Position numbers and translations under genes: made by a program. A stretch of 23,223 bases of DNA, taken from positions 1-23,223 of IMG/VR virus record IMGVR_UViG_3300049825_000738. One strand, given 5' to 3'. A model generated the notes under the pieces. That model had not been told where the DNA came from and ran no database searches. It worked only from the letters and a program-made list of their open reading frames with translations. This DNA is from a virus. This document shows positions 4,256-22,927 of the stretch, piece after piece; the first letter of the stretch is position 1; every line of letters begins with the position of its first letter.

Positions 4256-4392
4256 CAATGAGCATACTGACAAGTGACTTCTTCACCGGACTCATGACAG
4301 GGCTCGCGATAGGCTGGGTTCGCTCCTGGCCGCTCTGGAAGAAGCTCTGGGTCAAGATCAATCAGAAATTGGATGAGTGGACCGACGCCTAG
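4243..4392 (+). CDS. 49-residue putative membrane mini-protein
   Basis: A short frame starting MADLTMSILTS and ending DEWTDA, with one hydrophobic segment (about residues 12-25, FFTGLMTGLAIGWV) followed by basic, Trp-rich residues (RSWPLWKKLWVK). This suggests a single-pass inner membrane or membrane-surface peptide with the positive end inside. GGAGG at 4231-4235 lies seven bases from ATG 4243, a very good start; ATG 4258 is a second option. It starts inside the end of the preceding gene and stops at the ribosome site of the next. Function is unknown: a holin-like or superinfection-related role is possible but unsupported. Confidence 0.65.
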   Translation: MADLTMSILTSDFFTGLMTGLAIGWVRSWPLWKKLWVKINQKLDEWTDA

Positions 4393-4411
4393 GAGGATCT
4401 CCCATGGCCGA
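4392..4411 (+). repeat. 20-bp direct repeat, copy 2 (ribosome site plus start codon)
   Basis: Second copy of the block at 4231-4250. It provides the ribosome site and ATG (4404) of the methyltransferase-like gene, so both proteins begin MADLT. A further TAAC matches after a two-base difference. Duplication of a translation start is the simplest explanation. Confidence 0.9.
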
Positions 4412-5129: not shown

Positions 5130-5917
5130 TGCGACAATTCACGACGGATCTGATTACGCATCAATCACCTCTGAACGGGCACCCTCTACGTACGAAGGTC
5201 GCGATCGTCGGCTTTTCTGATAAGCTCCACAAACAAGCCCCCTATGACGATCCCGCCTGGGACGTGTGGGGCCTAAATATGGCGAATCGCATGGGCTTCA
5301 TGCAGGATGCGCGCGGGCGCTTTCGGGCCGACCGGTGGTTCGACCTGCACCCGCTCTCCGTCCAGTCGCAGGAGGATATGGCATGGATTCACTGCTGCCC
5401 CGTGCCGCTCTATTTGACCGAGCCCTATCCCATCAATCCTCGTGCGAGGGTCTACCCCTTGCTCGATGTCCGGACGCGCTACTTTGAGTACTGCGAACTC
5501 CCGTACTTCGCCAGTTCCTTTGCCTATATGCTGGCCTTGGCGATGTACGAAGGCTATCACACGATCGGGCTCTTTGGGTGTGATCTTGATTGGGGACGCG
5601 AGCGCATGGTCGAGCACGGTAATCTGGCGTTCTGGGTCGGTCTTGCGCGTGGCCTGGGGCATACAGTCTATATCCCACCGGGCAGCCGATTTCTCGCGCA
5701 TCCCGCCCTGTATGGGTTCGACTACTGGAAAGAAAAGACCGCGATTGAGGACCGCATGGTGCGCTTGGTACTGGAATTGCGGCACTACGAAAAGGTCGAG
5801 CAGCGCGTGTCACAGCTCACTTATCGGTGGAATAACGGCGATGCCGCGGCAGTACAGCGAGAACTCTGGGGGTCACTGGTGACGACCGAGGATGCACCGA
5901 TTCAGGAGGAGATATGA
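5129..5917 (+). CDS. Rossmann-type protein resembling DUF115/GT42, copy A
   Basis: The 262 residues share an architecture with the protein at 9499-10557. Visible elements are a glycine-containing first strand RTKVAIVGFS (21-30), YDDPAWDVWGLN (39-50), RADRWFDLH (67-75), and a central helix-strand pair SSFAYMLALAMYEGYHTIG followed by LFGCDLDWGRE. The pattern of a small-residue helix, then a GY-x-x-I strand, then G-x-D resembles DUF115/MptE proteins and, from memory, GT42 sialyltransferases such as CST-II. I see no sure catalytic His, so function is open: sugar or nucleotide-sugar chemistry is one option. The start is fixed by TGATG overlap with the previous gene. Confidence 0.75.
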   Translation: MRQFTTDLITHQSPLNGHPLRTKVAIVGFSDKLHKQAPYDDPAWDVWGLNMANRMGFMQDARGRFRADRWFDLHPLSVQSQEDMAWIHCCPVPLYLTEPYPINPRARVYPLLDVRTRYFEYCELPYFASSFAYMLALAMYEGYHTIGLFGCDLDWGRERMVEHGNLAFWVGLARGLGHTVYIPPGSRFLAHPALYGFDYWKEKTAIEDRMVRLVLELRHYEKVEQRVSQLTYRWNNGDAAAVQRELWGSLVTTEDAPIQEEI

Positions 5918-9498: not shown

Positions 9499-10557
9499 AT
9501 GCCAGACGCAGACGGACACAGCATGACATTGAACTTGACGGCGAATCCGAACAACGTGCCCCTCACGGCACAGGCCGTGGCGGACGCCCTCGGGCATAAC
9601 GTCGAGATCGAGTTCGAGCAGGTGGCGAATATCCCGAAGGAGTTGACCGGCCCGATTCGCTGGGATCATCCACTCGCGGCACATCCCGTGATCGTCGATG
9701 CGCACGCGGGACTGGTCTCGGTGACACCGCGCCGGACGAAGGTCTGTATCGTCGGGTATGCAGAGAATAGCCGGCATCTGGCGTGGTATGACGACCAGGA
9801 CTGTGAAATCTGGGGCGTCAATCAGCTGGGGCGCTTTATCCCACGCGCCGATCGCTGGTTTCAAATTCATCACAACTGGGATACCCCCGCCCTCTGGGCG
9901 AAGGGGACGGATCAGCGGCAGTGGATTCGCGAGTCGCCGATCCCCGTCTATATGATCGATTGTGACCCGGACTTGCCGTCCAGCGTCCGCTACCCGCTTG
10001 AGCGTGTGATGGCGGAGCTCAAGACACACGATTATTTTACCAGTACCATCGCCTTTATGGTCGCCCTGGCGATCGCCGAGGGATTCGAGACGATCGGGAT
10101 CTATGGGATCGACTTGATTATCGGGCGCGAGTATCAGTTTGAGAAGCCCTGCGTCGAATATCTCCTGGGGATTGCGAACGAGCGCGGGATTCGTATCCAT
10201 AAGCCCGACGGCTGCGCCCTCCTCTGGCAGAGTCACCGCTACGGCTATCAGGAGGAGCCGGAGTTCGGCTTCTACTCGGTCAAGAAGCTCGATGCGCGGT
10301 CGAAGCAATTGGAAGAACAGACACGCCTCCTGCGTGATGAAGTCAAGGTCTGGCAGGGGCGGCGTGAAGAGGCCGTCTGGGTACGCGAAAGGCTGAACGA
10401 AGGCGCGCAGGCGTCGATGGATGCGCATATCAAGGAACTGGAAGAGAAGATCGATAAGGCCCTGAATCGGCTCTACATGCACGACGGCGCACAACAGGAG
10501 GTCGCTCGGATGCACGACATTCTTGAGCTGCGACATCGCGGCGGGCAGGTCGCGTGA
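9499..10557 (+). CDS. Rossmann-type protein resembling DUF115/GT42, copy B, with coiled-coil tail
   Basis: The 352 residues contain a second copy of the protein at 5129-5917 plus extra ends. Residues 1-76 are an added N-terminal region. The shared core begins RRTKVCIVGYAEN (78-90), then YDDQDCEIWGVN (97-108), RADRWFQIHHNW (117-128), and STIAFMVALAIAEGFETIG with IYGIDLIIGREYQFEK. Residues from about 265 on are strongly charged and heptad-like (LEEQTRLLRDEVKVW, then HIKELEEKIDKAL), a likely coiled coil. ATG 9499 directly follows the previous stop. Its presence among head genes suggests a virion-related or assembly job, not proven. DUF115 or GT42-like glycan chemistry is the best guess. Confidence 0.75.
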   Translation: MPDADGHSMTLNLTANPNNVPLTAQAVADALGHNVEIEFEQVANIPKELTGPIRWDHPLAAHPVIVDAHAGLVSVTPRRTKVCIVGYAENSRHLAWYDDQDCEIWGVNQLGRFIPRADRWFQIHHNWDTPALWAKGTDQRQWIRESPIPVYMIDCDPDLPSSVRYPLERVMAELKTHDYFTSTIAFMVALAIAEGFETIGIYGIDLIIGREYQFEKPCVEYLLGIANERGIRIHKPDGCALLWQSHRYGYQEEPEFGFYSVKKLDARSKQLEEQTRLLRDEVKVWQGRREEAVWVRERLNEGAQASMDAHIKELEEKIDKALNRLYMHDGAQQEVARMHDILELRHRGGQVA

Positions 10558-11235
10558 ATGCTGACGGTCCTCGCCACGGCCACGTCGGACGCCCTCACCA
10601 CCCTAGAGAACGCCAAGGAGTTCTTGGGGGTGACGGACTCGAAGGACGATCAATTCATCGATCGGCTGATTCTGCGCGCCTCGCGACGCATCACGACCTA
10701 TCTCGGGCGTCCGCTCGTATTACAGACCTACCAGACGCTCTTGCCGTCGCAGGGCAGCGTGAATCTCCTCCTCCCGCGGTATCCGATTCAGACCGTTCTA
10801 CGCCTCTTCGACAGTTCGGATACGGGGAGCGCACAGGCGGTCACACAGTATCGCGTCGACCGCGAGGCGGGTCTATTGAATCGCGACGCGGGCTGGTCGT
10901 GGACGGTCCAGCTCGATGCCCATGCCGTCACCGATCTGCCTACGCCGGGCGGAGAATATCGCACCTGGCTCGTCGAGTGGTCGGCGGGCTATATCGGACC
11001 GAACGGCACCTCATCGACCGGGCACGGCAATACCAGCACCGGGTCGACTCTCCCGGAGGATCTCGAAGAGGCGTGTCTCGAATTGATCAAGGACCGCTAT
11101 CTGGCACGCAGCCGGAGCGACGCCGTGCAGAGTGAGAAGGTCGGAGATGTCTCGGTCACGTATCGTGATGGCGGTAGTCAGCAGGTTCCGATGACCGTGG
11201 CTGCCCTACTGGCGCCCTATCAAAGTGTGGTTTAA
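10558..11235 (+). CDS. Head-tail connector protein, HK97 gp6-like (adaptor)
   Basis: This type of protein forms a ring under the portal and links it to the tail. The family signature is visible: an N-terminal helical start (LENAKEFLGVTDSKDDQFID), the FIDRLILRASRRITTYLGRP segment, then a beta-rich region, and LPEDLEEACLELIKDRYLAR near residues 167-186 that closes the helical core; a GDVSVTYRDG strand follows. The length of 225 is longer than the usual gp6 because of a Gly/Ser/Thr insert (NGTSSTGHGNTSTGST). ATG comes straight after the preceding TGA. The other connector genes, which usually follow, begin only at 20960. Confidence 0.9.
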   Translation: MLTVLATATSDALTTLENAKEFLGVTDSKDDQFIDRLILRASRRITTYLGRPLVLQTYQTLLPSQGSVNLLLPRYPIQTVLRLFDSSDTGSAQAVTQYRVDREAGLLNRDAGWSWTVQLDAHAVTDLPTPGGEYRTWLVEWSAGYIGPNGTSSTGHGNTSTGSTLPEDLEEACLELIKDRYLARSRSDAVQSEKVGDVSVTYRDGGSQQVPMTVAALLAPYQSVV

Positions 11236-11245
11236 GGAGGCTGCG

Positions 11246-11434
11246 ATGAGTCGAACCGCTGCACAGATTTTAACCGATGTATCACAGGGGGAGCTCGATG
11301 CCGGGGATATTAAGGTCCGCGAAACCGCGCGGCTGCTGATTCGCGATGTCGAGACGGGCGAGACCGAGGAGCGCGTGCTGGCACAGGGAACGAGAACCGT
11401 CACGCAGCACGACGGACAGATCAGGATTTCGTAA
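11246..11434 (+). CDS. Hypothetical phage protein, 62 aa
   Basis: A small protein starting MSRTAAQILTDVSQGELD with a charged, beta-like second half (VRETARLLIRDVETGETEER). No family recognised. TAAGGAGG at 11234-11241 gives a very strong ribosome site for ATG 11246. It is the first gene of the block inserted between connector genes. Confidence 0.75.
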   Translation: MSRTAAQILTDVSQGELDAGDIKVRETARLLIRDVETGETEERVLAQGTRTVTQHDGQIRIS

Positions 11435-11461
11435 TTCATCTAGCTGAAGGAGGGCGCCACC

Positions 11462-11860
11462 GTGCCTTTACATATTACCGGACGGAATATCATTGCATCA
11501 CTCCTCTTGGGCAATTCTGTCACGCCACTGTTGGCGACGACTGGCGCTGTCCTGTGGGTCGGCTCAGGTACCGCTGATCACGTCTCGTCAGATAATCATC
11601 TGAAGGGGACGAGTGTCGCGGCGACAATGGTTTCAGGGTACCCCATTAACTCCCCGAACAACAGAATGACGTTCCGTGGCGTCTATGCCACGAATCAGGC
11701 GAACTTCGATTGGTCGGAGTGGGGCATCAAGAACGCGACTACGACTGCGACCTCAACGGCGGGCTCGACGTTCATGCTACAGCGGAAACAGGAAGCCCTG
11801 GGGACGAAGGCCAACACGCAGCAATGGCAGCTGACGGTCGATCTCGACATTACGACCTAA
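11462..11860 (+). CDS. Virion surface/tail-fibre-like structural protein, 132 aa
   Basis: The sequence has VYATNQANFDWSEWGIKN, then TFMLQRKQEALGTK and QQWQLTVDLDI near the end. This series (WxEWG, then a L-x-R strand, LGTK, then W-x-L-T-V) is a pattern I know from phage structural proteins encoded among fibre genes; it suggests a beta-sandwich. The start is GTG 11462, with GAAGGAGGG at 11447-11455. It precedes a row of other beta-rich surface proteins. Confidence 0.75.
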   Translation: MPLHITGRNIIASLLLGNSVTPLLATTGAVLWVGSGTADHVSSDNHLKGTSVAATMVSGYPINSPNNRMTFRGVYATNQANFDWSEWGIKNATTTATSTAGSTFMLQRKQEALGTKANTQQWQLTVDLDITT

Positions 11861-11863
11861 GCG

Positions 11864-12061
11864 ATGTCGCCCTGGATTATGCATACGGTTGCCGAGGGGC
11901 GGTGCATACACTGTGGATGTCCGGTCCCTGAATCGGCACGTGTCGATTCGGTGGCTTATTGGCTCAAGGGCCTGGGGTGGCTCGCCGAAGTGCCGCACGG
12001 ACGTATCGTACCCTGTGAGGAGACGAATGGGAGCGGGACGCGCGACGCTCGGGTGGCTTGA
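11864..12061 (+). CDS. 65-residue mini-protein with CxxCxC motif
   Basis: A short frame with CIHCGCPVPES (C-x2-C-x-C, residues 14-19) and one more Cys (VPCEE) near residue 51. The motif is like CASCGC in the gene at 5914. It may bind zinc, but a clear second pair is lacking. It starts three bases after the preceding stop, has no strong ribosome site, and overlaps the next gene by 35 bases. Real gene more likely than not. Confidence 0.55.
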   Translation: MSPWIMHTVAEGRCIHCGCPVPESARVDSVAYWLKGLGWLAEVPHGRIVPCEETNGSGTRDARVA

Positions 12062-12344
12062 GGTCACGACCGATGAGGGCGGCGGGCCGCTGACGGGACT
12101 CGCGGGCTATCGCATCTATCGTACCAAAACTCCTGGCGGTCCCTATACCCTAGCCGCCGATCCAGGACTGACCGCTACCCCATCAGCTCCTCGTTATACG
12201 GTTACAGACTTCAGCTCTGACGGGGTCTGGTACTTTGCGCTAACGGCCTATGATGCAAGCGGCAATGAATCAGCCGGGAAGAGCGTTGAGGTCTCGAAAA
12301 CCATCACGCGCCCAAAGCTACGTCTCGGGCGCACCTACGTCTAA
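12027..12344 (+). CDS. Single fibronectin type III domain protein
   Basis: Almost all of the 105 residues form one FN3 domain: LGWLEVTTDEGGGPLTGLAG, then YRIYRTKTPGGPYTLA (C-strand region), YTVTDFSSDGVWYFALTAYD (F-strand Tyr), and SGNESAGKSVEVSK as the G strand. FN3 domains on virions usually bind cell-surface sugars or act as spacers. ATG 12027 has AGGAG at 12018-12022; the frame is open upstream to 11889 but without such a site. It is placed among surface proteins in the inserted block. Confidence 0.85.
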   Translation: MGAGRATLGWLEVTTDEGGGPLTGLAGYRIYRTKTPGGPYTLAADPGLTATPSAPRYTVTDFSSDGVWYFALTAYDASGNESAGKSVEVSKTITRPKLRLGRTYV

Positions 12345-12355
12345 TGGAGGCTACT

Positions 12356-12784
12356 ATGCAGTGGAAACCACTCATCCTCATGATTGTACTCGTCGGCTTC
12401 GGTTGGCTCCTGACGGTCACGTTACTGCAGGCCGAAACCTGTACGGGGACGACCTGTACTTATACCGCGGCGGGGACGGAACCCGCGACGAAAGTAGGCG
12501 GGGCGCCACTGAACAACCTCAAGCAAATCGTCTTAACGCCGAAGCTGAACGGCGTGACGCAAGCACCCATCGTGATTCCCGCCACCGCGCCGACGGGTGG
12601 GGGCACATTCAGTAAGGCGTTGACCATCACGCCGACCGTCTGTGCGGTGACGACGCTTTCGGTGGATATGCAGGCAGAAAATACCGTGGGGGCGAAAAGT
12701 ACGGCGATCACTGCGTCCAAATCGAAGGATTTGACGCTGGACCCTACGTGTGCCCCCGCAGCGGGGGCGTTTACACTCGATTAA
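12356..12784 (+). CDS. Secreted or membrane-anchored Ig-like protein with signal peptide
   Basis: The first 26 residues are a good Sec signal or membrane anchor: MQWK, then PLILMIVLVGFGWLLTVTLL, with a cleavage-like LQA|ETC site. The rest (about 116 residues) is Thr/Ala-rich with four cysteines or more (CTGTTC, TVCAV, PTCAP) and a strand pattern like an Ig or FN3 domain. ATG 12356 is preferred because GGAGG lies at 12346-12350; the earlier ATG 12344 overlaps the previous stop. A signal peptide is unusual for virion parts and suggests export to the periplasm or cell surface. No family assigned. Confidence 0.75.
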   Translation: MQWKPLILMIVLVGFGWLLTVTLLQAETCTGTTCTYTAAGTEPATKVGGAPLNNLKQIVLTPKLNGVTQAPIVIPATAPTGGGTFSKALTITPTVCAVTTLSVDMQAENTVGAKSTAITASKSKDLTLDPTCAPAAGAFTLD

Positions 12785-12878
12785 GGCGATGGCTCTGCGC
12801 AGTCTTTGGTTGGTGCTCCACACGTATATAGGCGGATGACGCGATGATGGTACGCGACTGGTATCGACGGAGGGTACA

Positions 12879-14030
12879 ATGAGACTGAGATTCGCCATAT
12901 TACTCATCCTCATGTGCGGCTACTGGGCTATGCCGGCCGAGGCCCATCTTAACTGCAACGGTGATGGGGCGCACAATGCGGCGTACCAAGCTGATTGCCT
13001 CGCCAATGGTGACGTGTTGCATATCGATGATTTCGAGGACGGCACCTATGTCTGTAGCAATGAAAATCCAGGACTGGCGATCAACGATGGATGGAACGCC
13101 AATCCGTTTATCGGTACGGACCCGGACGGAGTGAGTGGGGCGCCAGGCACCTGTTGGGTCACAGCGGGCGGCGTAGGCAGTAGCGCATGGGCGGCGGATT
13201 CAGGATTGATTAATGGGGGGGAAGGGGGCGTGCCCACGATGAGTGACCACGGACTGCGCGTCACCATCACCTATGGACAAACCCTGCGCTTGCGCTATTA
13301 CAAGCGGTGTGTGCGGAGCCCGCAGTGCGACTGGACGATCAACACGAAACTCTATCCCACCATCAATCCATTTGTCGGATCTGGCGGGATTTACTTCGGA
13401 GCTACGGGTGCATTTCCACTGGTGGGCGTGGCGGACCCAGATGCTCCTGGCCCATGCAGTAATCCAACGCCGGATAACTGTACGAAAGCGTATCACATTA
13501 TGGACTGGAAAGATAACATCGGGGATCGCGCCTACCTCTTCGATCCCAACCAAGGAAATGCGGTCTACGATTGCAATGACGCTGCGAATAACCGCTGTTT
13601 CGAGGACGGAACGCAAACGAATGTATGGTACTACTTTGAGCATGAGTGGAAATTCAATACCAACGGATCGGCCAATGGCACCTATCGGTTCTGGATGAAT
13701 CGGTGCGGCACAAGTGGCGTCTGCACAGGCTCGCCACACTTACAAGCCTCCTATACCGGGCTACAACTCCTCCCAGCCTTTCAGGGCAATGCCGTGATTG
13801 GCGCACTCTGGATGGAGCAGTATTCGAGTTGGAACGATACGCGCAATGTCCACGGACGGTGGCAGTGGGATGAAATTATCGTGTCGAAAGCGACCGCTGG
13901 ACCAATCGGGTTTGCTGGGGCCAGCTCCGATACCGCACCTCCGTCCTCTCCGACGGGCGTGACCGTGACGCAGGCGCCTGCTGTCCCGCGTGATCTGCAT
14001 CTCATAAAGGAGTCTCCTCATGCCCGCTAG
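12879..14030 (+). CDS. Secreted Cys-rich jelly-roll-like protein with signal peptide
   Basis: The 383 residues start with a clear signal peptide (MRLRFAILLILMCGYW, cleavage near AEA|HLN). The mature part has many cysteines in disulfide-type spacing and a beta-rich, Gly/Asn/Trp-rich sequence; VWYYFEHEWKFNTNGSANG and GRWQWDEIIVSK recall concanavalin-like or glycan-binding jelly rolls. It ends in DTAPPSSPTGVTVT, the usual entry to an FN3 domain, but stops 19 residues later, so the FN3 domain is missing. GGAGGG near 12869 precedes ATG 12879. It overlaps the next gene by 11 bases. Carbohydrate binding is an inference only. Confidence 0.75.
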   Translation: MRLRFAILLILMCGYWAMPAEAHLNCNGDGAHNAAYQADCLANGDVLHIDDFEDGTYVCSNENPGLAINDGWNANPFIGTDPDGVSGAPGTCWVTAGGVGSSAWAADSGLINGGEGGVPTMSDHGLRVTITYGQTLRLRYYKRCVRSPQCDWTINTKLYPTINPFVGSGGIYFGATGAFPLVGVADPDAPGPCSNPTPDNCTKAYHIMDWKDNIGDRAYLFDPNQGNAVYDCNDAANNRCFEDGTQTNVWYYFEHEWKFNTNGSANGTYRFWMNRCGTSGVCTGSPHLQASYTGLQLLPAFQGNAVIGALWMEQYSSWNDTRNVHGRWQWDEIIVSKATAGPIGFAGASSDTAPPSSPTGVTVTQAPAVPRDLHLIKESPHAR

Positions 14031-14706
14031 TCTCGGCGGCATCGCCTCGGCCTTCGGCACTGCGACGTCGCAGACTACGGGCGCTATCACCGCAACGCCG
14101 ACCGCGGGAAGTGCCTTGGTGGTGGTCGTCGAAGTCACACGTGATAATTCCAACGCCATCACCGTCAGTGACAACAACAGTAACACGTTTGCACGGGTCT
14201 CAGGAAGTGCCACGACGACCGTTCAAGGCACGGTCGTGTTTCTCGCGTCCAATATCGCCACGTCGGCGGGGCATACGGTGACGGTACAGTTTTCCGATGT
14301 CAACGCCGTGTCGAATATCGCCGTGCAGGAAATCAAAGGGGCCGCCACCAGCAGCCCGTTTGACGTGCAAGCGCCCACCGATACGACGAACAATCAAACC
14401 CCGGCCCCCGCTACGACCGATGGCGTGACCTCCACCGCAGCCACCACGACGGCGGCAGGAGAGTTTGTGCTGGGTGCAACCCGATGCGGCGATGCCGCTG
14501 ATCTGACCGTCGGGACGGGATTTACGAATATCCAGACAGTCAACAATATCCTCAAGACGGAGTATCTGATTCAGGGTGCAGCCGGGTCGATTGCCGCAAC
14601 GATGACGCTTGGGAGTGCACAAAATACCAGATCGCTTATGGCGACGTTTAAGGCGGCAAGCGGGGCCGTTGCCGATGCACGGAAGCTCGTCCGGACGTGG
14701 ATCTAG
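14020..14706 (+). CDS. Beta-rich Ig-like structural protein, 228 aa
   Basis: The protein is Thr/Ala/Val-rich with repeated beta strands (ALVVVVEVTRDNSNAITVSD, then TVQFSDVNAVSNIAVQEIKG). It ends with MTLGSAQNTRSLMATFKAAS. Proteins with this pattern (a VxVxE strand, IAVQEIKGA, ATFKAA at the end) are common in metagenomic phages and bacteria as single beta-sandwich domains. Starts at ATG 14020 with AAAGGAG at 14007-14013 inside the end of the preceding gene. Likely a surface protein; role unknown. Confidence 0.7.
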   Translation: MPASLGGIASAFGTATSQTTGAITATPTAGSALVVVVEVTRDNSNAITVSDNNSNTFARVSGSATTTVQGTVVFLASNIATSAGHTVTVQFSDVNAVSNIAVQEIKGAATSSPFDVQAPTDTTNNQTPAPATTDGVTSTAATTTAAGEFVLGATRCGDAADLTVGTGFTNIQTVNNILKTEYLIQGAAGSIAATMTLGSAQNTRSLMATFKAASGAVADARKLVRTWI

Positions 14707-14707
14707 T

Positions 14708-15283
14708 ATGGCGCGACGCGTCCTCAATGTCGGAGGCGGTGGATCACGCGATCTTCCCACACTGTATCGCGAGTGGCGTCAGGATCTCCTCGATATTGAT
14801 CCGATCGTCAAGCCGGATATTTGCTGTGACGCGAAAGACCTGAAGACGTTACCGCGCGGGACGTATGACGCCGTGTTTTGTTCGCACAATCTTGAGCACT
14901 TCTATCACCACGAGGTACCGATCGTGCTAGCGGGCATGAGACACGTCTTGAAGCGGAACGGATTTCTTCACTGTGCGGTCCCGGATGTCGCGGCGCTCAT
15001 GGAGGCCGTCGTGCAGGGGAAGAAAGATATAATGGATATTTGGTATACCGTGCCGGCAGGTCCGATCCGTTTTCACGATGTCCTCTACGGCTGGAGCAAG
15101 GAAGTCATGCGCGGGAATCAGTACTACTGTCATCGCACGAACTTTACCGAGAAGAGCTTCACGCACGTTCTGAGTCTGGCGCACTTTACACAGATCTACA
15201 CGGCGCGCGATGGGTACAATCTCACGGCCTTTGCGTTTCTGCAACTGCCCTCCGCCGCACAGCGAAAGGAGTGTGGACTCTAA
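14708..15283 (+). CDS. Class I SAM-dependent methyltransferase (first copy)
   Basis: The 191 residues show a Rossmann methyltransferase: RVLNVGGGGSRDLP (residues 4-17) is the SAM-binding motif I, DLLDIDP (26-32) holds the acid that binds the ribose, and YDAVFCSHNLEHFYHHEVPI (53-72) and MRHVLKRNGFLHCAVPD (77-93) are motifs II and III of the Methyltransf_11 type. The substrate is unknown; the neighbours are fibre-like proteins and a glycosyltransferase. ATG 14708 directly follows the preceding TAG; no clear ribosome site, so coupling is likely. Compare the second copy at 17098, which has the same length. Confidence 0.85.
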   Translation: MARRVLNVGGGGSRDLPTLYREWRQDLLDIDPIVKPDICCDAKDLKTLPRGTYDAVFCSHNLEHFYHHEVPIVLAGMRHVLKRNGFLHCAVPDVAALMEAVVQGKKDIMDIWYTVPAGPIRFHDVLYGWSKEVMRGNQYYCHRTNFTEKSFTHVLSLAHFTQIYTARDGYNLTAFAFLQLPSAAQRKECGL

Positions 15284-16380
15284 TGCCAGTAACACATGCA
15301 AAGAACGTCACCGCTGCGGACTGGTCCGGCGTCATTACGGTGGGGAACAGTACGGGCGGGTCAACGACCGATCAGGCCTCCAATCTGGCGCGCCCTGGCG
15401 ATTGGAACTCAAATCACGTCGTGAATCTCTCGGCCTCTGAACTGACCCCTGTCTTTACCTTTACGAACGGCCTATCGAGTACGACGGCAGCGGGCGGCAT
15501 TACGATAGGGATGGCCTCGGACCCCTGGTACACGCCGCTGCCCTTCTATAATACCGGCGTCACGCAAGTCTCGGTGAGTTCGATGTCGAACGGCACTTGG
15601 TATCTGGACGGACCCTATGAGTGGGATCAAGCGATGGGCAAGGGGCAGATCAACGTCTTTGTCGCCATGCCGGCGAATTTTCTCGGCGGAGCGGTCTATT
15701 CAGCCGCCTCCACAGGATCAGTCACCCGTACCGCAACCTTCTATAATCACTTTGCGATCTACAAGCAGGGTTCAGGCGCTAGCACGACGCGGCTGGAATC
15801 ATTCTGGACGATGCAGAATTCGTTCATCGCCACGAACGAGATGAACCTGAATACGGCGAATACGAGTTCCGGGACCTTGACGAACCGCCTGACGATCAGC
15901 TTTCCCGCGCAGTGGGATACGGCGGGCGGTATCACCTATAGTTCGTCGTCTACCAGTGCGACCTCGAATCTTTCGGCGAGCACGATGGCCTCGACGCGCT
16001 ACGATTCGCTTATCTCGAACGTCGGCGCCTACCTCAGTGGCTCGATGATGCAGATATTCGGGATGTCCACCACCGCCCCGCCGGGCATCTATTGGGTCGG
16101 ACGCATGCAGTTCACCACGACAGCGAGCGCGGGAACATCTGGTGGGATCGGGTCGATGGGCACGTACTTCGGTCAGTGCAGCGTGCTGGGGCAAGTCGAG
16201 CTATTGGGAAATGCCTATAGGCGGCAAGGACTGTCCGTCACCAATAGCACGTCGAACTTCTTTCCGTTCCACGGATTTTTGGCCACGAGTACGACGGACG
16301 CCACCTCGATTATCAACACCGCCGACATTCGAGGGACCACGGGCCAGATGTACTGGAACTATTTTGCGAGCTCCTACTAA
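15283..16380 (+). CDS. Tail/head fibre-like protein, 365 aa
   Basis: The N-terminus (MPVTHAKNVTAADWSGV, then LARPGDWNSNHVVNL) has the pattern of phage fibre proteins that start with a short motif followed by RPxDWNxxH, here about residues 37-46. The body is Ser/Thr/Gly-rich, beta-type, with aromatic residues (WYTPLPFYNTG, GTWYLDGPYEWDQAM). It is probably exposed on the virion and may bind a host receptor. ATG 15283 overlaps the preceding TAA by one base; AAGGAG lies at 15266-15271. The glycosyltransferase gene follows at once, which makes this protein a candidate substrate. Confidence 0.75.
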   Translation: MPVTHAKNVTAADWSGVITVGNSTGGSTTDQASNLARPGDWNSNHVVNLSASELTPVFTFTNGLSSTTAAGGITIGMASDPWYTPLPFYNTGVTQVSVSSMSNGTWYLDGPYEWDQAMGKGQINVFVAMPANFLGGAVYSAASTGSVTRTATFYNHFAIYKQGSGASTTRLESFWTMQNSFIATNEMNLNTANTSSGTLTNRLTISFPAQWDTAGGITYSSSSTSATSNLSASTMASTRYDSLISNVGAYLSGSMMQIFGMSTTAPPGIYWVGRMQFTTTASAGTSGGIGSMGTYFGQCSVLGQVELLGNAYRRQGLSVTNSTSNFFPFHGFLATSTTDATSIINTADIRGTTGQMYWNYFASSY

Positions 16381-16381
16381 G

Positions 16382-17104
16382 ATGAAACCCGAACTCTTGA
16401 TTCAGGTACTCGAAACAGGTGGCTACCATAACGGCGACATCGGGCGCACGCGCGCGCGATTGGATAAAAGCAAGAGCTGGCGGAAGCAGCGCATCATTGT
16501 CTTATTGCCGACGTCGATGATGATTGCCGCGAAAGTCTCGCTCTCGCACTGGAACCTGGCATTCCCGCCAAACAATGGGGTCGCGCGTCTCCTGGCGATC
16601 GGTATGGAGGTTGGGGAAGCCTACAGTACCGCCATCGAGCAGATTCTCGCGCATCCTGAACTGAGTCAGTGGGAATATCTCTTGACACTTGAGCACGATA
16701 ATATGCCCCCACCGGACGGCGTACTACGATTGGTCGAGCGTATGGAGGCCCATCAGACGTATGATTGCATCGGCGGCTTATACTTTACCAAGGGCGAGGG
16801 CGGGGTGGCGCAGATCTGGGGCGATCCGACAGACCCGGTTCTGAACTTCCGCCCGCAACTCCCCGATCAGAACGGGGGGTTAAAGGACTGCTGCGGGACC
16901 GGAATGGGCTTTAACCTGTGGCGGTTGAAGATGTTTAAGGATAAGAAATTACGACGACCCTGGTTCGTTACGCAGAAGCACGGCGGTGTCGCGACACAGG
17001 ACCTCTATTTCTGGACGGACGCCCGCACGCACGGCTATCGGTGTGCGGTGGATTGCTCGGTCAAGGTGGGGCATTATGCACCGGAAACGGATACGGTATG
17101 GTAA
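16382..17104 (+). CDS. GT-A type glycosyltransferase
   Basis: The 240 residues have the features of a metal-dependent glycosyltransferase: a first strand QRIIVLLPT (36-44), a DxD-like LTLEHDNMPPPDGVLRL (101-117) for the metal and sugar nucleotide, GGLYFTKGEGG, then KDCCGTGMGFNLWRL (168-182), TQDLYFWTDARTHGY (205-219) as the acid-containing acceptor side, and VKVGHY (228-232) near the end with the second metal ligand. Donor and acceptor are unknown. Starts one base after the preceding fibre gene stop and overlaps the following methyltransferase by 7 bases, so the three are co-expressed. It may glycosylate fibre proteins or a cell glycan. Confidence 0.85.
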   Translation: MKPELLIQVLETGGYHNGDIGRTRARLDKSKSWRKQRIIVLLPTSMMIAAKVSLSHWNLAFPPNNGVARLLAIGMEVGEAYSTAIEQILAHPELSQWEYLLTLEHDNMPPPDGVLRLVERMEAHQTYDCIGGLYFTKGEGGVAQIWGDPTDPVLNFRPQLPDQNGGLKDCCGTGMGFNLWRLKMFKDKKLRRPWFVTQKHGGVATQDLYFWTDARTHGYRCAVDCSVKVGHYAPETDTVW

Positions 17105-17664
17105 GGGCGAAGAAATTACGATTCACGAAGCAACCTATTACGCCGCCGCTGGTCCAGCTCGACCTCGGTACGGGGAAGGGGAAGAATCGTCCCGAGGGAT
17201 TCCTCGGCGTCGATAGCCATCACTATCCTGGTGCGCGCGTCGTGGATTTACGGAAACGCTGGCCGTGGCCGGATAACTCGGTGGACGCGGTACATTGCAA
17301 TCATCTCCTGCAGTTCTTCACGAGCCGCGAGCGCGTGCATTTTACCAACGAACTCTATCGCATTCTGAAGCCTGGCGCCAAGGCCACGATTATTACACCC
17401 TATTGGGCCGCCTGTAAGGGCTATGGTGATACCTCGACGTGCTGGCCGCCGGTGTCAGAGGCCTGGTATGCGCGCCTGAACAAAGTCTGGCGTGAGGCGC
17501 AGGACTATGACGATCCCGATGGCTATACGTGTGACTTCGAGCATACGATCGGGTACGGCCTGCATCAAGCAATCGTCCCGCGCAATCTCGAATATCAGCA
17601 GCACGCGGTGATGTTCTACAAGGAGGCCGTACAGGACTTAATCGCCAACTTGATGAAGAAATAA
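17098..17664 (+). CDS. Class I SAM-dependent methyltransferase (second copy)
   Basis: The 188 residues have VQLDLGTGKGKN (19-30) as SAM motif I, FLGVDS (35-40) with the ribose-binding acid, SVDAVHCNHLLQFFT (61-75), and NELYRILKPGAKATII (84-99), a typical Methyltransf_11 core. It is the same size and type as the protein at 14708 but not closely related by eye. The start at ATG 17098 overlaps the glycosyltransferase stop; the frame is open back to 17041. With the glycosyltransferase it may produce a methylated sugar. Substrate unknown. Confidence 0.85.
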   Translation: MVRAKKLRFTKQPITPPLVQLDLGTGKGKNRPEGFLGVDSHHYPGARVVDLRKRWPWPDNSVDAVHCNHLLQFFTSRERVHFTNELYRILKPGAKATIITPYWAACKGYGDTSTCWPPVSEAWYARLNKVWREAQDYDDPDGYTCDFEHTIGYGLHQAIVPRNLEYQQHAVMFYKEAVQDLIANLMKK

Positions 17665-17667
17665 CCC

Positions 17668-20643
17668 ATGTCAGCGTTTCAACATAACGCCTTTCAACCT
17701 AACGCCTTTCAGGGTGAGCGCTCCTCACTCTTCTTGAACGCGGCGGTCTCCGATCCACTGCTCACGGGCCTGACCGAGACCGCCGTCCTGACCCGTATTA
17801 ATCTCGTCGCCTCCGATACACTGGCGCTAACAGTCAGTGACCCTGATATTACAGCGTTTGAACTGACCGGTCTCACCGATCCCTTCCCGGCCTTTGCGGA
17901 GACCTCCGCGCTCGATACCGGCGGTGGGATTACGCCCATCGTAGGCGCCGACACCCTGTTGGGCTTAGCGGAAGCCGTCACCGTTCGCGCCTTCATTCCT
18001 ACATCTGACGTCTGGGCCGCCGGTCTCACGGATACGGCCACGGCATCCGCCACTGTCTCGACCTCGGATACCTTTGCGGCGGGTCTGACGGATACGGCGG
18101 GGACGCTCGTTATCTCCGTCTCGACCGCTGACATCGTGACGTGTGGCGTTACGGAGAATCTTGTCCTCGCTATCTCGTTCGCCACGTCCGATACGCTGGT
18201 CATAGGCCTGACCGACTCCACGACACCAGCAATCACACTCTCGACCTCTGATGTCTTCACGACGGGCCTGACGGATACCGCCAATAGCTCGGTCACGCTC
18301 ACCACATCAGACAGCCTGCGTACTGTTATCGATGATCTAGACATTCTCGCGATTGAGTTGACGGGTCTGACGGACGCCTTCCCAGCCTTCACCGACACCT
18401 CGACGCTCGATGCCGGTGGCGCGATACAGATTACGTCATCCGACGTTCTGATCACTGGCGTGACGGAGTCCAGTACCGTCTTCGTGCGGCTCTCGGTCTC
18501 TGACACGCTCATGCAAGTGGTCGAGGATCTGCTGATCAAGAAGAGCGAATCAGTCAGCGACTCACTTCCTGGTTTCGTTGAATCGGCCTCGGTTGTGCAG
18601 CTCAGCGCGGGTATCATTGCGACCTCCGATGCATTGACCGTCGGTCTCACCGAGGCGGTCACGCTCGTTGCAACGCTCTCGATCTCCGATACACTCACCG
18701 GACTCGCCGAGAGCGCCACGAAACTCGACCTGAGTGCGACGGTCATTACCACCAGTGACTCCCTGTCGCTTACGCTCGGCGAGCGCGCCATCCGCAGTGA
18801 CGGGACTCTCTTCGCCCTCTTCACGAGTGACGCCATACGCGTCACGATAGCTGATCTGGACATCAAGGACATCTTCCTGAATAACGACCCTGATCCACTC
18901 AGACTAGGTCTCACGGAAACGGCATCGGTCGTCATCGACGCCGTGACGTTTGTTACCAAAACTGGTACCGATAGTATTACCGTCGGACTCGTTGAGCCCT
19001 ACGTCTTTGAGCAGCAGCTCGCCAGCGCCGAGAACATGCAGGTGCGTATCACGGAATCCACGGCGGTCGTGGATCTGACCGGCGGTATTACGAGTATCAC
19101 GGATGACGATTTCGTCCTACGCATTGGGCTGACTGAAACCCTTACGGCGAAGGGTCTCGTCACTGTTAGTGATGCCCTCTCAGGACTGACCGAGCAATCT
19201 ACGCTGGAGACCGCTGGGGGCATTGAAAAGACCGCCTCCGATACGCTCACGGTCAACATCTATCCAGACTTCCCGACGACAGGCGTGCTCGATACCTTTA
19301 CACGTACCGATGAAAACCCGTTGGCCTCTGGACCCTGGCAGGCCTTCTTGTTGGGTACGAGTCGCGGGCAACTCCTCTCCAATGCAATTACACATACCCT
19401 GAGCACGTCATTCTCAAATGCCTGGAACGCCGTTCCTTCTTCCGATCAAGAGATTTATCTTACGGTTACGACGCGCCCGAATGTATCTGGGAACGTCTCG
19501 CTCTTCGTTCGCGCGAATAATCTTAACAGTGCCGTGGAGAACGGCTACATCTGCCAATATACACGCACCACCTGGACGTTGTCGGTCTTTACCGGAGGAT
19601 CTGCCGCCGCGACACTTGCCAGTGGTGCGCTGTCTCTCTCCGATGGCGATGCCATCGGCCTGCGCATTACGGGTATTACACTTAGTGTCTATCATCAACC
19701 CATCGCCGGAGCATGGACACGATTGGGATCTGCGACCAGCACGACCTATGCTACGGGTACGATCGGGTTCTATGCCTTAGATACCGCCACAGGTACGGTA
19801 CTGGATAATCTGGGCGGCGGTCTCTATGTACCGTTCGAGCAGAGCACGCTCGCGGTACGTATCAGCGTAAGCGACACCGCACCAGGACTGACCGAGACCG
19901 TGGCTACGCGGCTCTCGATGCGTGTCGACGAACTTCTCTCCGGACTGGGTGAGAATATAAACATCGTACCGATCATCCCGATTAGCGCCGCCGACGCGAT
20001 TGATAACATTTTCAATGTCATTCTCGCCGAGAACGCCAATATCGTCGATCTCTCAGGCGGGCTCTCGACGCATAGCGATACGGAGACGCTGCCCGCATTC
20101 CTGAATGAGGCCGCACTCACTCGCGCCTTCCAGCCAGTGAGTGACGTGGAAGCACTGGGACTGACTGAGGCGGCAGCCGTGGCCGTGGTGATTGCGGGCG
20201 CCGACACGTTGGTCGTGCAGCTGACCGATACGTCAGGCGCGGGCGCCCTGGTGCTACTCAGAGTAGATGATCTATTGGCGAAACTAGCTGAGGACGTCAC
20301 GAACTATCTACGTACCTCGGTTGAAGAGACGGTCGGCGGACTCCTTAGTGACCTCTATCGACAGTTACAGGGACAGGTTGCGACTGACGATCTACTCATT
20401 CTGGGTCTCACCGAGACGAGGACGATCCAGGATGTTACGGATCTACTGACGAAGAGCGGGGCTGACTCCCTTCGTCTGGGGATGACCGAGACCGCGGTTA
20501 TTGAATCCGTAAGTCTGCTGGGCGGGCAAATTATCGTCACAACGGTAGAGTATCTGGGGCGAAAAAGGGCTATACTAGGGAACGGGCCGTTAACCGTGAC
20601 CGTGGACACGATGCCGAAACAGGCACAATTGAGTGAGGTCTAA
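17668..20643 (+). CDS. Giant repetitive fibre protein, 991 aa, with embedded lectin-like domain
   Basis: Three regions are visible. Residues 1-16 (MSAFQHNAFQPNAFQG) carry the AFQxNAFQ peptide seen at the start of several phage virion proteins, perhaps an anchor. Residues about 27-541 and 728-951 are tandem units of 18-25 residues, consensus SDTLxxGLTE, each with an Asp near the start and Glu/Asp after GLT. Residues about 542-721 are a different domain (DTFTRTDENPLASGPW, VSLFVRANN, GTIGFYALDT, LDNLGGGLYV) with a concanavalin-like pattern. This looks like a long stalk or fibre with a sugar-binding domain. It starts three bases after the preceding gene. Acidic overall. The location among connector genes suggests a neck or head fibre, unproven. 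Confidence 0.85.
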   Translation: MSAFQHNAFQPNAFQGERSSLFLNAAVSDPLLTGLTETAVLTRINLVASDTLALTVSDPDITAFELTGLTDPFPAFAETSALDTGGGITPIVGADTLLGLAEAVTVRAFIPTSDVWAAGLTDTATASATVSTSDTFAAGLTDTAGTLVISVSTADIVTCGVTENLVLAISFATSDTLVIGLTDSTTPAITLSTSDVFTTGLTDTANSSVTLTTSDSLRTVIDDLDILAIELTGLTDAFPAFTDTSTLDAGGAIQITSSDVLITGVTESSTVFVRLSVSDTLMQVVEDLLIKKSESVSDSLPGFVESASVVQLSAGIIATSDALTVGLTEAVTLVATLSISDTLTGLAESATKLDLSATVITTSDSLSLTLGERAIRSDGTLFALFTSDAIRVTIADLDIKDIFLNNDPDPLRLGLTETASVVIDAVTFVTKTGTDSITVGLVEPYVFEQQLASAENMQVRITESTAVVDLTGGITSITDDDFVLRIGLTETLTAKGLVTVSDALSGLTEQSTLETAGGIEKTASDTLTVNIYPDFPTTGVLDTFTRTDENPLASGPWQAFLLGTSRGQLLSNAITHTLSTSFSNAWNAVPSSDQEIYLTVTTRPNVSGNVSLFVRANNLNSAVENGYICQYTRTTWTLSVFTGGSAAATLASGALSLSDGDAIGLRITGITLSVYHQPIAGAWTRLGSATSTTYATGTIGFYALDTATGTVLDNLGGGLYVPFEQSTLAVRISVSDTAPGLTETVATRLSMRVDELLSGLGENINIVPIIPISAADAIDNIFNVILAENANIVDLSGGLSTHSDTETLPAFLNEAALTRAFQPVSDVEALGLTEAAAVAVVIAGADTLVVQLTDTSGAGALVLLRVDDLLAKLAEDVTNYLRTSVEETVGGLLSDLYRQLQGQVATDDLLILGLTETRTIQDVTDLLTKSGADSLRLGMTETAVIESVSLLGGQIIVTTVEYLGRKRAILGNGPLTVTVDTMPKQAQLSEV
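17746..19290 (+). repeat. Coding tandem repeats of the giant fibre, first array
   Basis: Roughly 20 units of about 60 bases are visible by eye, each encoding a version of SDTLxxGLTE followed by 8-12 variable residues. Two longer units are near copies (ELTGLTDPFPAF at 17860 and ELTGLTDAFPAF at 18355), showing block duplication. Units vary in length, so this is protein-level, not a simple DNA satellite. Confidence 0.85.
19852..20520 (+). repeat. Coding tandem repeats of the giant fibre, second array
   Basis: About seven further units continue after the lectin-like domain, for example VSDTAPGLTE, VSDVEALGLTE, ATDDLLILGLTE and ADSLRLGMTE. They are more divergent than in the first array. The last 40 residues of the protein lack the repeat. 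Confidence 0.8.
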
Positions 20644-20645
20644 CC

Positions 20646-20969
20646 ATGTCGCATGAAACCGTCGGGATTGTCGAGGGGTGGAGCGCGCGACTTGACTTTT
20701 CCTTAAAGGAAAACGACGCCGTCAAGGATCTCTCCGGTCTGACCATGATCGCCGAAGCCCTGGACCGCCGAAAGCAACCCGTGACGTTGACGGGAGACTT
20801 GACGATCATCAGTGCGACGGACGGGCGTGTCCGACTCACCCCGGATACGGGAGACTTTCCACCAGCAGGCAGTCCGTTCGAGCTGCGCTTTAAGGCCGTT
20901 CAGGGCGGTGAGGTGAGCTACTACCCGAGTGATGCTGCCGTGAAGGTCGAGGTCCGTCGATGGGCGTGA
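20646..20969 (+). CDS. Baseplate/neck-type structural protein (BppU N-terminal-like), 107 aa
   Basis: A beta-sandwich pattern: GWSARLDFSLKENDAVKDLS, then LTMIAEALDRRKQPVTLTG, GRVRLTPDTGDFPPAGSPFE, and a final strand VKVEVRRWA. This order of strands, with the TPxxGDFPPAG turn, fits the small module found at the N-terminus of BppU and in many phage structural proteins that connect fibres to the virion. It follows the giant fibre at once, so it could be the attachment platform of that fibre. ATG 20646 follows the previous stop; it overlaps the next gene by 10 bases. Confidence 0.7.
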   Translation: MSHETVGIVEGWSARLDFSLKENDAVKDLSGLTMIAEALDRRKQPVTLTGDLTIISATDGRVRLTPDTGDFPPAGSPFELRFKAVQGGEVSYYPSDAAVKVEVRRWA

Positions 20970-21316
20970 TCGAGCATGTGCAAGGTCTTCTCGATACAAC
21001 CGTAGAGCTTGAGCCCTGGACGGCGCAGGACTCCTACGGGCGCGGCACTTACGGGGCGAAGCGAACCGTACTCGCCCGTATCCAGCAGGGGATCTATCAA
21101 ACACTCGGCGCCAATGGACAAACATTGGTCGCGGGGTACAAGGTGATTCTCGGTGAGGCAATTCAGGTAGACCCGCGCGATCGGCTGACACTCCCAGAGG
21201 CCTTCGGGCCGCGTGCGATCGGAGGAAAGACGGCGGAAGTCCAGCCACCGATCCGCTCAGTCCAGCCAGTCTACTATCATGGGGCACATGATTATACAGT
21301 CATTCTCTGCGGATGA
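20960..21316 (+). CDS. Head closure (head-tail joining) protein
   Basis: The 118 residues match the SPP1 gp16/HK97 gp7-type head closure family by pattern: a start with a short helix, then TVELEPWTAQDSYGRGTYG, VLARIQQG, and LGEAIQVDPRDRLTLPE with the last strand. This ring sits under the gp6-like adaptor and closes the head after packaging. It overlaps the preceding gene by 10 bases and ends 4 bases before the gp10-like gene. In most phages the gp6-like gene lies immediately before it; here 9.7 kb separates them. Confidence 0.85.
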   Translation: MGVIEHVQGLLDTTVELEPWTAQDSYGRGTYGAKRTVLARIQQGIYQTLGANGQTLVAGYKVILGEAIQVDPRDRLTLPEAFGPRAIGGKTAEVQPPIRSVQPVYYHGAHDYTVILCG

Positions 21317-21320
21317 TACG

Positions 21321-21821
21321 ATGAAGATCGAAATTGAGATCAAGGGGACCGACGAACTCCGGCGCATCCTGAGTGCTGCCGGACCGCAGGCACCGAGAGC
21401 CATCGCGGGTCCGCTCTATCGCTTTGTGCGGCAGTATGTTCTGCTGCCCGCCAAACAACGCTTTGTGCCGGTCGTGGACTCAGCCCTCAAGAATAGTATT
21501 CAAATTGAGGCGCCGACGATTAACGGATCTGTCGTGACGGTCACGATAGGGGCAGGTGGACAAAGCGCCCCCTATGCGGCGGCGGTGCATGAGAATCCTC
21601 GATCTGGGAAAACCGGAGGCATTCCTCCCGGAGGATTACAGCCACTGACGTTTCGATGGATTGGCGGAAAGATTCGCCCCATTGGCGGGCCATATCGTCG
21701 CTATTCACGTGTCGGGCAGTGGAAGTACCTTGAACAACCCGCGAAGGAAGCCGCCGCACATCTCGAACCGTTAATTCAGGATGTGCGCCGAGAAGTGGAG
21801 AAGCTCTTTGGGCGTCGCTGA
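21321..21821 (+). CDS. HK97 gp10-like tail completion protein
   Basis: Starts MKIEIEIKGTDELRRIL with an early helix, a common start in the HK97 gp10 family (tail completion or minor tail protein). The motif APYAAAVHE (about residues 79-87) is close to the YA-x-x-VE motif of the family; the C-terminus is basic and helical (LIQDVRREVEKLFGRR). ATG 21321 lies four bases after the preceding stop; ATG 21288 is in the same frame but overlaps the head closure gene by 29 bases. Role: joins tail to neck. Overlaps the next gene start by 14 bases. Confidence 0.85.
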   Translation: MKIEIEIKGTDELRRILSAAGPQAPRAIAGPLYRFVRQYVLLPAKQRFVPVVDSALKNSIQIEAPTINGSVVTVTIGAGGQSAPYAAAVHENPRSGKTGGIPPGGLQPLTFRWIGGKIRPIGGPYRRYSRVGQWKYLEQPAKEAAAHLEPLIQDVRREVEKLFGRR

Positions 21822-22191
21822 TGATCTTGCCGATCTCTTGGTGACGGGTAACCTGAGTGCCACGGTGCATATCGGTGAGCTACTGGCTGAGCCGTCGAAG
21901 GCCGCCGTGATTACACCGACGCCGGGACTGCCGAATCTCCGGACCTACGGCGGATCGGTCTTAGAGCGCGTTAGTGTGCAGGTGCGGTGCAGAGCCTCGG
22001 ATTACCCGACGGCAGATAATCTCATGGCTTCGGCGCATGGAAAGTTGAGTGGCGTAAAGGACAAGATATTGAGCGGACGCACCTATCATTGGATCGTCGA
22101 GGTACAGCAGCCGTTCTACCTAGGACTGGATGAGAACGAGCGCCCGATATTTGCCTGTAACTTTGATATTTTGCGGTCAGCAACGACCTAA
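21808..22191 (+). CDS. Tail terminator / minor capsid-type protein, TTG start
   Basis: The 127 residues begin (M/L)GVADDLADLLVTGN, include VITPTPGLPNLRTYGG, VSVQVRCRASDYPTADNLM, and KDKILSGRTYHWIVEVQQPF, with PIFACNFDILRS at the end. This is the pattern of small proteins of tail terminator/minor capsid type that follow gp10-like genes. No ATG sits in frame at a good site: TTG 21808 has GGAG at 21797-21800, seven bases away; ATG 21781 is the alternative. The start overlaps the end of the preceding gene by 14 bases. Its TAA (22189-22191) overlaps the stop of the HNH gene on the other strand. Confidence 0.8.
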   Translation: MGVADDLADLLVTGNLSATVHIGELLAEPSKAAVITPTPGLPNLRTYGGSVLERVSVQVRCRASDYPTADNLMASAHGKLSGVKDKILSGRTYHWIVEVQQPFYLGLDENERPIFACNFDILRSATT

Positions 22192-22664
22192 TCGAGGAGG
22201 ACAAGTTGAGCAGGTATACGACCGTTCCCACGCTTCATGTTGCACTTGAGATGCGACAATCCAAGATTGGCTGTGATCGTTGGTCCACCCTGAGCAATGG
22301 GGATGAGATGATCGAGCGACATAGTACGCTTCGAGACTTTCTTGCCACAGATATGACATTTGCCGTTGGTGCGCTGAATAATCACTTCTACATCAACAGG
22401 GCCAACACCGTTCGAACGTTTCTTCGCCAATCGTTTCAACACCTGGATGCGTCGCTTCATTCGATTGGCGATAATATCCTTTTGGTAGTGTGCTCGATTA
22501 TAGGCAAGGAAGCGTTCATGGTTATCTTTTCGCCATTGCTTCAAGCGGTCGTAGGATTTGCCAGGATTATCAAGATCCCATTGCTTGACTCGGGCAGACT
22601 CTTTTACTCTATATGCCGCAAGTGCTACCGGATCGGATTGGAGACGTTTCGCTATAGGGTGCAT
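22188..22664 (-). CDS. HNH homing-type endonuclease
   Basis: The only - strand gene. In 158 residues the HNH domain is at the C-terminus: CHIC (103-106), MSLDHLIPIAQGGPTITANL (115-133+) with catalytic His119, SHLKCNMKRGNGRI (137-150); Cys103, Cys106, His138 and Cys141 form the zinc site. The N-terminal part (1-100) is helical, basic, and probably binds DNA. Free-standing genes of this type move between phages by cutting. The ATG at 22664 (complement CAT at 22662-22664) is the first ATG in the frame; no ribosome site is seen. A TGCTATGTT element upstream could be an extended -10 box. Lower GC than neighbours by eye; recent insertion likely. Confidence 0.92.
   Translation of the reverse strand: MHPIAKRLQSDPVALAAYRVKESARVKQWDLDNPGKSYDRLKQWRKDNHERFLAYNRAHYQKDIIANRMKRRIQVLKRLAKKRSNGVGPVDVEVIIQRTNGKCHICGKKVSKRTMSLDHLIPIAQGGPTITANLGLSHLKCNMKRGNGRIPAQLVLLD
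22195..22200 (+). promoter_or_regulatory. Strong Shine-Dalgarno site without a recognised + strand gene
   Basis: GAGGAGG lies five bases before TTG 22206 on the + strand. No recognised gene starts there. It may be a leftover of the gene start that existed before the HNH gene was inserted, or serve a 172-codon frame antisense to the HNH gene (22206-22724, ending in an ATGA overlap with the next gene). Confidence 0.5.
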
Positions 22665-22720
22665 GAACAGAACATAGCACACTCTACTGCGCACTGTAAC
22701 TATGATTGCTTGAGGAGCGT

Positions 22721-22927
22721 ATGATTCGTGAGACCCTAGAGGCGGCAAAGAGTCAGTTGATTGCCACGCTGCACGTCCTAGATGTGGCCCTGGCGGCGAT
22801 GGAGCAACAGCCAACAACGTGTCCGCATGAGCAGAAAATCGACATCAGCAGTTTCACCACTCCGGGCAAATGGTATTGTCCGGCTTGCCGCACGGAAGGC
22901 GGCGTTACATTAGCAGAGGGGGGCTAG
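22721..22927 (+). CDS. 68-residue mini-protein with zinc-binding cysteines
   Basis: Starts MIRETLEAAKSQLIATLHVL with a helical first half, followed by TCPHEQK (about residues 33-39) and WYCPACRTE (52-60). CPH...CPAC can bind one zinc. TGAGGAG at 22711-22717 gives a good ribosome site for ATG 22721. It resembles small phage proteins with a helix plus a zinc ribbon that sit next to tail genes. Function unknown. It lies between the HNH gene and the tail tube, which it precedes by 3 bases. Confidence 0.75.
   Translation: MIRETLEAAKSQLIATLHVLDVALAAMEQQPTTCPHEQKIDISSFTTPGKWYCPACRTEGGVTLAEGG

Follow-up and report, generated by a model that had tools for sequence, protein, structure and literature searches.

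Experiments have demonstrated that virion proteins of some mycobacteriophages, Che8 among them, are glycosylated (Freeman et al. 2023, cited by PMC11256854 and PMC12619734). There, the substrates are the capsid and tail tube, whereas the putative substrate at the locus described here is a fibre. The Omega-like mycobacteriophage Wanda carries glycosyltransferases, a kinase and a methyltransferase inserted between its capsid and connector genes; one glycosyltransferase is distantly similar to ours (24%, 4e-4), but the Wanda adaptor and closure genes are adjacent and its enzymes are unpaired with a fibre gene. A nearer counterpart is the podovirus ctxSa4 (MW202718, Manatee Spring metagenome), which encodes an F2 fibre, a methyltransferase, a glycosyltransferase (GT, 58-62% identity) and a second methyltransferase (MT2, 44%) in the order seen here. 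The fibre-GT-MT2 trio of ctxSa4 sits in the structural region between the capsid and a P22-like stabilization protein, among head genes unrelated to ours, and the split between adaptor and closure is absent. Fibres or collars that mount on the adaptor-level neck ring are known from cyanophage A-1(L) (neck fibres gp82-gp81-gp80, PMC10966104) and from the collars and whiskers of T4, XM1 and Milano (PMC10491603). The neck-fibre genes of A-1(L) are gp80-82 and its neck proteins gp5 and gp7, so that its connectors, unlike those reported here, are not split (PMC10966104, accessible part). The accessible text of these sources reports no glyco-cassette for the neck fibres or collars of these four phages, and any likeness to our locus would be one of position on the virion. 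Among isolates, RHph_X2_25, Pd_22F, RcapNL, BgVeeders33 and Roos have a homologous capsid and/or adaptor and the same module order, but closure follows zero to one genes after the adaptor where it can be identified. Neither the split nor the fibre-GT-MT2 cassette was reported in the searchable literature, outside which most subscription journals lie.

The stretch of DNA analyzed here (the window) is a 23,223-bp IMG/VR virus record (IMGVR_UViG_3300049825_000738) and a single metagenomic contig. ORF calling and profile searches gave the order TerL (end only), portal, MuF, DNA methyltransferase-like gene, prohead protease, HK97 capsid and adaptor, then 13 genes, then head closure, gp10/Neck1, tail terminator and tail tube. 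This agrees with the initial annotation, which had placed 13 genes (b1 to b13, 11246-20969) between adaptor and closure. All of these 13 genes, and the connector genes on either side, are on the plus strand. The gp6-like head-tail adaptor (10558-11235) forms the left flank, is placed after the capsid genes and is well supported (phrog_442, 1.5e-34; PF05135, 9.9e-12, above the curated cut-off). The right flank, an Hc1-like head closure gene (20960-21316), has a profile match that is weak alone (phrog_3881, E 0.003); we accept it because of its synteny, in the correct order before the gp10/Neck1-like tail completion gene (21318-21821; phrog_5, 2.7e-6) and the tail terminator (21781-22191; PF12691, 1.6e-14), and because of its 41% identity to the closure of a near-complete relative, G001. 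Neighboring block genes overlap or are separated by no more than 27 bp, the one exception being a 94-bp interval ahead of position 12879. The description of the block as a coherent and tightly packed unit of fibre-like surface proteins and modification enzymes stands, and both of its SAM methyltransferases pass Pfam cut-offs.

To place the arrangement among relatives, an alignment of the window capsid protein with two phage homologues was used, which yielded 80 IMG/VR relatives; single-protein scans of viral contigs with the window capsid and portal gave no matches, and alignments were required. Adaptor and closure HMMs built for this analysis detected both genes in 58 loci (including isolate phages and two other fetched loci). 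The gap between the two genes was ≤14 bp in 57 of the 58 and 544 bp in the remaining one, compared with 9,725 bp in the window. Isolate phages showed the same adjacency, and the split is hence a real outlier that far exceeds what chance would give. The gene-order comparison around gp6-like adaptors that had been proposed as a check thus found adjacency to be the rule, and the earlier impression that the arrangement is unusual proved correct.

The split is not restricted to the window contig; it is common to an uncultivated clade of soil and water phages, which on their predicted genes are HK97-capsid phages with tail genes but no sheath. The closest kin of the window were found by scans with the adaptor, b2, b13 and g9499 (the window gene at 9499). 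A block occupies the slot between adaptor and closure in L171, L172, L174, L185 (contained in G001), L186 and L264, with b2 at its left and b13 at its right where that end is present, and with b1/b2 at the start and usually a repeat fibre before b13. The order from MuF to adaptor in L171 and L186 is that of the window. The left boundary gene, b1 (11246-11434, 62 aa), has related or similarly placed genes of 53-67 aa directly after the adaptor in L171, L174, L185 and L264, the b1-like gene of L171 and L185 being followed by b2. The latter (11462-11860, 132 aa) encodes a small fibre-associated protein (phrog_23653, 2.3e-18) with more than 300 viral relatives, and is 70% and 69% identical to its counterparts at the same place in L171 and L186, respectively. 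At the right boundary, b13 (20646-20969, 107 aa) always directly precedes closure and shares 56% identity with its counterpart in G001 and 32-35% with those in L174, L263, L264 and L266. Its AlphaFold model was unusable (pLDDT 39), with no PDB match at E ≤ 0.001, and searches of a phage collection with b9 and b13 gave no matches.

The longest of these relatives, G001 (59,443 bp), is nearly complete, as a 616-bp overlap between its ends (96% identity) indicates. Its slot of ~6.6 kb holds, after the adaptor, b1, b2, a signal-peptide FN3 protein, five more genes, a b12-like repeat fibre and b13, and downstream identities to the window are 41% (closure), 39% (gp10), 42% (terminator) and 58% (tube). 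In L264, the block (5.6 kb) opens with b1 and b2 and includes a secreted SNase-like nuclease, a protein resembling a beta-helix, a repeat fibre and, ahead of closure, b13; L174 carries a 1.7-kb version with b13 last. These records also bear on whether the window itself is a chimeric assembly or a chance juxtaposition, as might be suspected of a single 23-kb metagenomic contig. One or both junctions are shared by independent records (L171, L186, L264 and G001), GC content is even across the whole window, and there are no strand switches within the block. An artifact of this kind is accordingly very improbable, and as an explanation of the slot it is already refuted.

Members of the clade also differ in whether they carry the block at all. 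Over 8 kb, L174 and L175 share 99.7-99.97% identity, yet 1,641 bp of the block are missing from L175 (L174 5756-7398 versus L175 5711-5715), which makes the two a natural presence/absence pair. In L175, the adaptor is followed by a 23-residue remnant in which the beginning of b1 is joined to the final residues of b13, a deletion scar, and then by closure; b13 was not found elsewhere in this 30-kb block-less record. L173, from a different sample, has the same short form. A second pair, L185 and L186, is 95-96% identical up to position 11289, the last base of a block gene, beyond which nothing is alignable. The two pairs together show that the block has been lost, and exchanged at a gene boundary. 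Since the block is absent from a nearly identical phage, the neck can do without it, and the L174/L175 comparison suggests that the module is dispensable.

As judged from its sequence, the window block combines edges specific to the slot with parts that are traded widely. Besides the boundary genes, it encodes a small Cys-containing protein predicted as an ORF (b3, 11864-12061, 65 aa), for which L186 has a 72-aa Cys-rich ORF in a like position, the likeness being positional. This is followed by an FN3-like domain of ~105 aa (b4, 12027-12344), similar by BLASTP to signal-peptide FN3 proteins of the podovirus loci L012 (1.4e-5) and L011. Sequence inspection indicates an N-terminal signal peptide with an Ig-like remainder in b5 (12344-12784, 146 aa) and a signal-peptide protein of lectin-like appearance in b6 (12879-14030, 383 aa). 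No family match was obtained for b5 in PHROG/Pfam-type profile searches, nor any match for b6 in PHROG, Pfam, NCBIfam or PDB. Homologues of b3, b5 and b6 were not found, and these three may not be fibres. Two signal-peptide proteins thus lie within a late structural block (12344-14030), and signal-peptide FN3 proteins recur in L186, L011 and L012. Further, a fibre-like 226-aa protein of L186 matches L011 (1e-28), and the signal-peptide FN3 proteins of L186 match those of L012 (4e-13). Two more block proteins are fibre-like. The Ser/Thr-rich b7 (14020-14706, 228 aa, 26% Ser/Thr) was recognized by composition and is very weakly similar to L011 6534-7256 (0.018). The 991-aa b12 (17668-20643) is a repeat fibre with 20-residue SDTLxxGLTE repeats, an inserted beta-rich segment and an N-terminal FQxNAFQ motif, and resembling repeat fibres occur at the same place in L186, L264, L263 and G001.

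The interior of the block contains a cassette of four genes. The first, MT1 (b8, 14708-15283), is a predicted SAM methyltransferase with an intact SHNLEH motif (PF08241, above cut-off), whose homologues (49-62% identity) lie directly upstream of a fibre in L011-L015. The fibre, b9 (15283-16380, 365 aa), belongs to the F2 family, is Ser/Thr-rich (27%) and is 36-83% identical to its counterparts in L011-L015. Profile comparison linked its C-terminal domain to other F2 fibres (prob 98.6), a score that Ser/Thr-rich composition can inflate. Its AlphaFold model is of low confidence (51) with a beta-rich core; the best viral match was a phage parallel beta-helix protein, and the fold search gave no PDB match at E ≤ 0.001. 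The third gene, GT (b10, 16382-17104; PHROG 2.6e-5), encodes a GT2-like glycosyltransferase with conserved E104xD106, D207 and H231, and the fourth, MT2 (b11, 17098-17664; PF08241, above cut-off), a SAM methyltransferase paired with GT in which an EH dyad is replaced by QF.

A scan with GT alone identified 80 metagenomic viral (IMG/VR) loci (GT identity 43-87%); linkage to MT2 and fibre was therefore not built into the selection. MT2 adjoins GT in 75 of the 80; of the five loci without this neighbor, four stop at GT or shortly beyond it. An F2 fibre lies at most 1.5 kb upstream of GT in 48 of the 80. GT and MT2 distances are correlated (rho 0.56, permuted-null sd 0.07), more strongly than those of GT and the fibre C-terminus (0.28). 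The head and tail genes beside the cassette, assigned by PHROG, are diverse: a P22-like portal, scaffold and coat in L030, a phrog_1216 portal with a phrog_3927 scaffold in L015, another coat family in L012, an HK97-type capsid and protease in L027, and a tape measure gene in L029. Its slot varies likewise (between portal and scaffold, after the capsid, before the adaptor, or, in L029, before the tape measure), and in L014 the order MT1-F2-GT-MT2 occurs just upstream of an adjacent adaptor-closure pair. Being found with different head genes and in other slots, the cassette has no fixed tie to the neck. The methyltransferase preceding GT in ctxSa4 was considered as an equivalent of MT1, but the two are not clearly the same (E 0.007); the fixed core is hence fibre-GT-MT2, with MT1 marking a subclade. 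A GT search of G001 and other clade members was empty, which is weak evidence as those records had no positive control.

These results divide the proposal that the block is a unit for neck or head fibres. Similarly bounded blocks do occupy the adaptor-closure slot of relatives, but a dedicated neck or head function is not supported as first stated, given the portability of the fibre-GT-MT2 core, which occurs in phages with unrelated heads and in other slots, and the absence of the whole block from a near-identical phage. We consider it likely that the adaptor-closure slot holds a locus for accessory fibres, optional in presence and modular in makeup, and that its interior in the window took up a portable MT1-fibre-GT-MT2 cassette. 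An accessory fibre locus is of a known kind; the slot is unusual, and the putative fibre-glycosylation cassette is widespread.

Whether the cassette enzymes are active was assessed from residue conservation. The GT scores below the Pfam gathering threshold (16.9 versus 23.3 bits, 0.006), and one of 18 relatives matches at all. Despite this sub-threshold match, GT is probably active, because the ExD metal motif, D207 and H231 are conserved across 82 sequences. In the MT2 family, 67 of 74 members keep the EH pair. It has been lost from MT2 in all six loci that carry MT1 (the window and L011-L015), where MT1 keeps SHNLEH or a close variant. This pattern suggests that MT1 took over catalysis with MT2 as its non-catalytic partner, although the six carriers are probably one lineage and the loss may be a single event. 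GT and methyltransferase genes lie among structural genes here as they do in mycobacteriophage-type virion glycosylation clusters, and Ser and Thr make up 24-27% of b7, b9 and b12. Late in infection, GT would glycosylate fibre domains rich in Ser and Thr, those of b9 most probably and those of b12 perhaps. The methyltransferases would then methylate that glycan, with MT1 as the active enzyme and MT2 possibly as a partner without the conserved EH pair. The decorated fibres would mount on the virion and could change adhesion, receptor range or particle recognition. Glycosylation, b9 as the substrate and a location on the virion are each predictions from gene content, under which the block proteins are probably accessory virion fibres glycosylated and methylated by their own cassette.

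The same enzymes could instead have host targets, whether the cell surface or other molecules (for receptor masking, superinfection exclusion or seroconversion), and be merely carried in a late operon. GT and the methyltransferases belong to soluble, broad-specificity enzyme types (GT2-like and Methyltransf_11), and b5, b6 and their counterparts (such as the SNase-like nuclease of L264) bear signal peptides, implying that the slot carries exported proteins; signal peptides would be odd for virion proteins and count against a virion-fibre reading of b5 and b6. On the other hand, a fibre is kept upstream of GT across unrelated phages, and the structural-gene setting of the cassette suggests late expression. 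Seroconversion enzymes are typical of temperate phages, yet no prophage or bacterial copy of GT was found: a pattern scan recovered it from no GTDB genome, and neither GT nor g9499 was found in bacterial or archaeal genomes. A host target is thus improbable, and modification of the phage's own fibres remains our preferred reading. The nuclease of L264 (1912-2496) is itself a signal-peptide staphylococcal-nuclease homologue (PF00565, 9.6e-19) located inside the adaptor-closure block.

The position of such fibres on the virion is less certain. The fibres might belong to an ordinary tail-fibre locus that was relocated, in which case they would attach along the tail or at its tip, and the connector neighborhood would be uninformative about location. 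The many slots and morphotypes in which the fibre-GT-MT2 cassette occurs, in some loci just before the tape measure gene (L029), fit this idea, as does the small tail-tip module of G001, which has two large proteins. However, G001 already encodes a separate tail-fibre-like protein after its tape measure (phrog_8469 and others), which makes its block additional to a tail fibre. Wherever a clade member offers sufficient sequence, its block adjoins the connectors, and complete-enough contigs keep it exactly between adaptor and closure. Moreover, a 1024-aa ORF in L127 (6764-9838), directly before closure, encodes ~830 fibre-like residues that continue in frame into a complete C-terminal adaptor domain (phrog_442 at residues 836-1022; translation may also start internally at the adaptor), and a giant 1841-aa protein in L014 ends 7 bp before the adaptor. 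The window sequence ends in the tail tube gene, placing its own tail fibres out of view. A relocated tail-fibre locus is less likely than not. A neck position is possible for the block on these gene neighborhoods, and we give a neck or head location of the fibres a chance that is at best even. The fullest version, namely an exchangeable neck-fibre locus of siphovirus-like phages with b13 and/or b1-b2 as ring anchors and a mobile self-glycosylating cassette in which one methyltransferase is the non-catalytic partner of the other, is a tentative proposal and, taken as a whole, somewhat unlikely.

In HK97-type phages, the adaptor and closure genes are hardly ever separated. That one clade accommodates as much as 9.7 kb between them, and has swapped this DNA repeatedly, indicates that surface modules can dock within a connector operon. 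Approximately 80 environmental phages with the cassette and different head genes also lead to a testable claim, that many uncultivated phages possess an enzyme pair dedicated to chemical modification of their own fibres; with a single-gene substrate and small enzymes, the cassette is easy to test.

Several other genes of the window merit mention. Two paralogues (5129-5917 and 9499-10557; 34% identity) flank the capsid genes and are conserved in the clade (51-56%). They had no family or PDB match, and their GxD-rich motifs (IGIYGIDL), which we take to resemble DUF115/sialyltransferase-like folds, make them possibly further glycan enzymes. A DNA methyltransferase-like gene (DPFCGYGS, 4377-5129) lies within the head module between the MuF and protease genes, and an HNH endonuclease gene (22188-22817, minus strand), likely a homing element, is located between the tail terminator and the tail tube.
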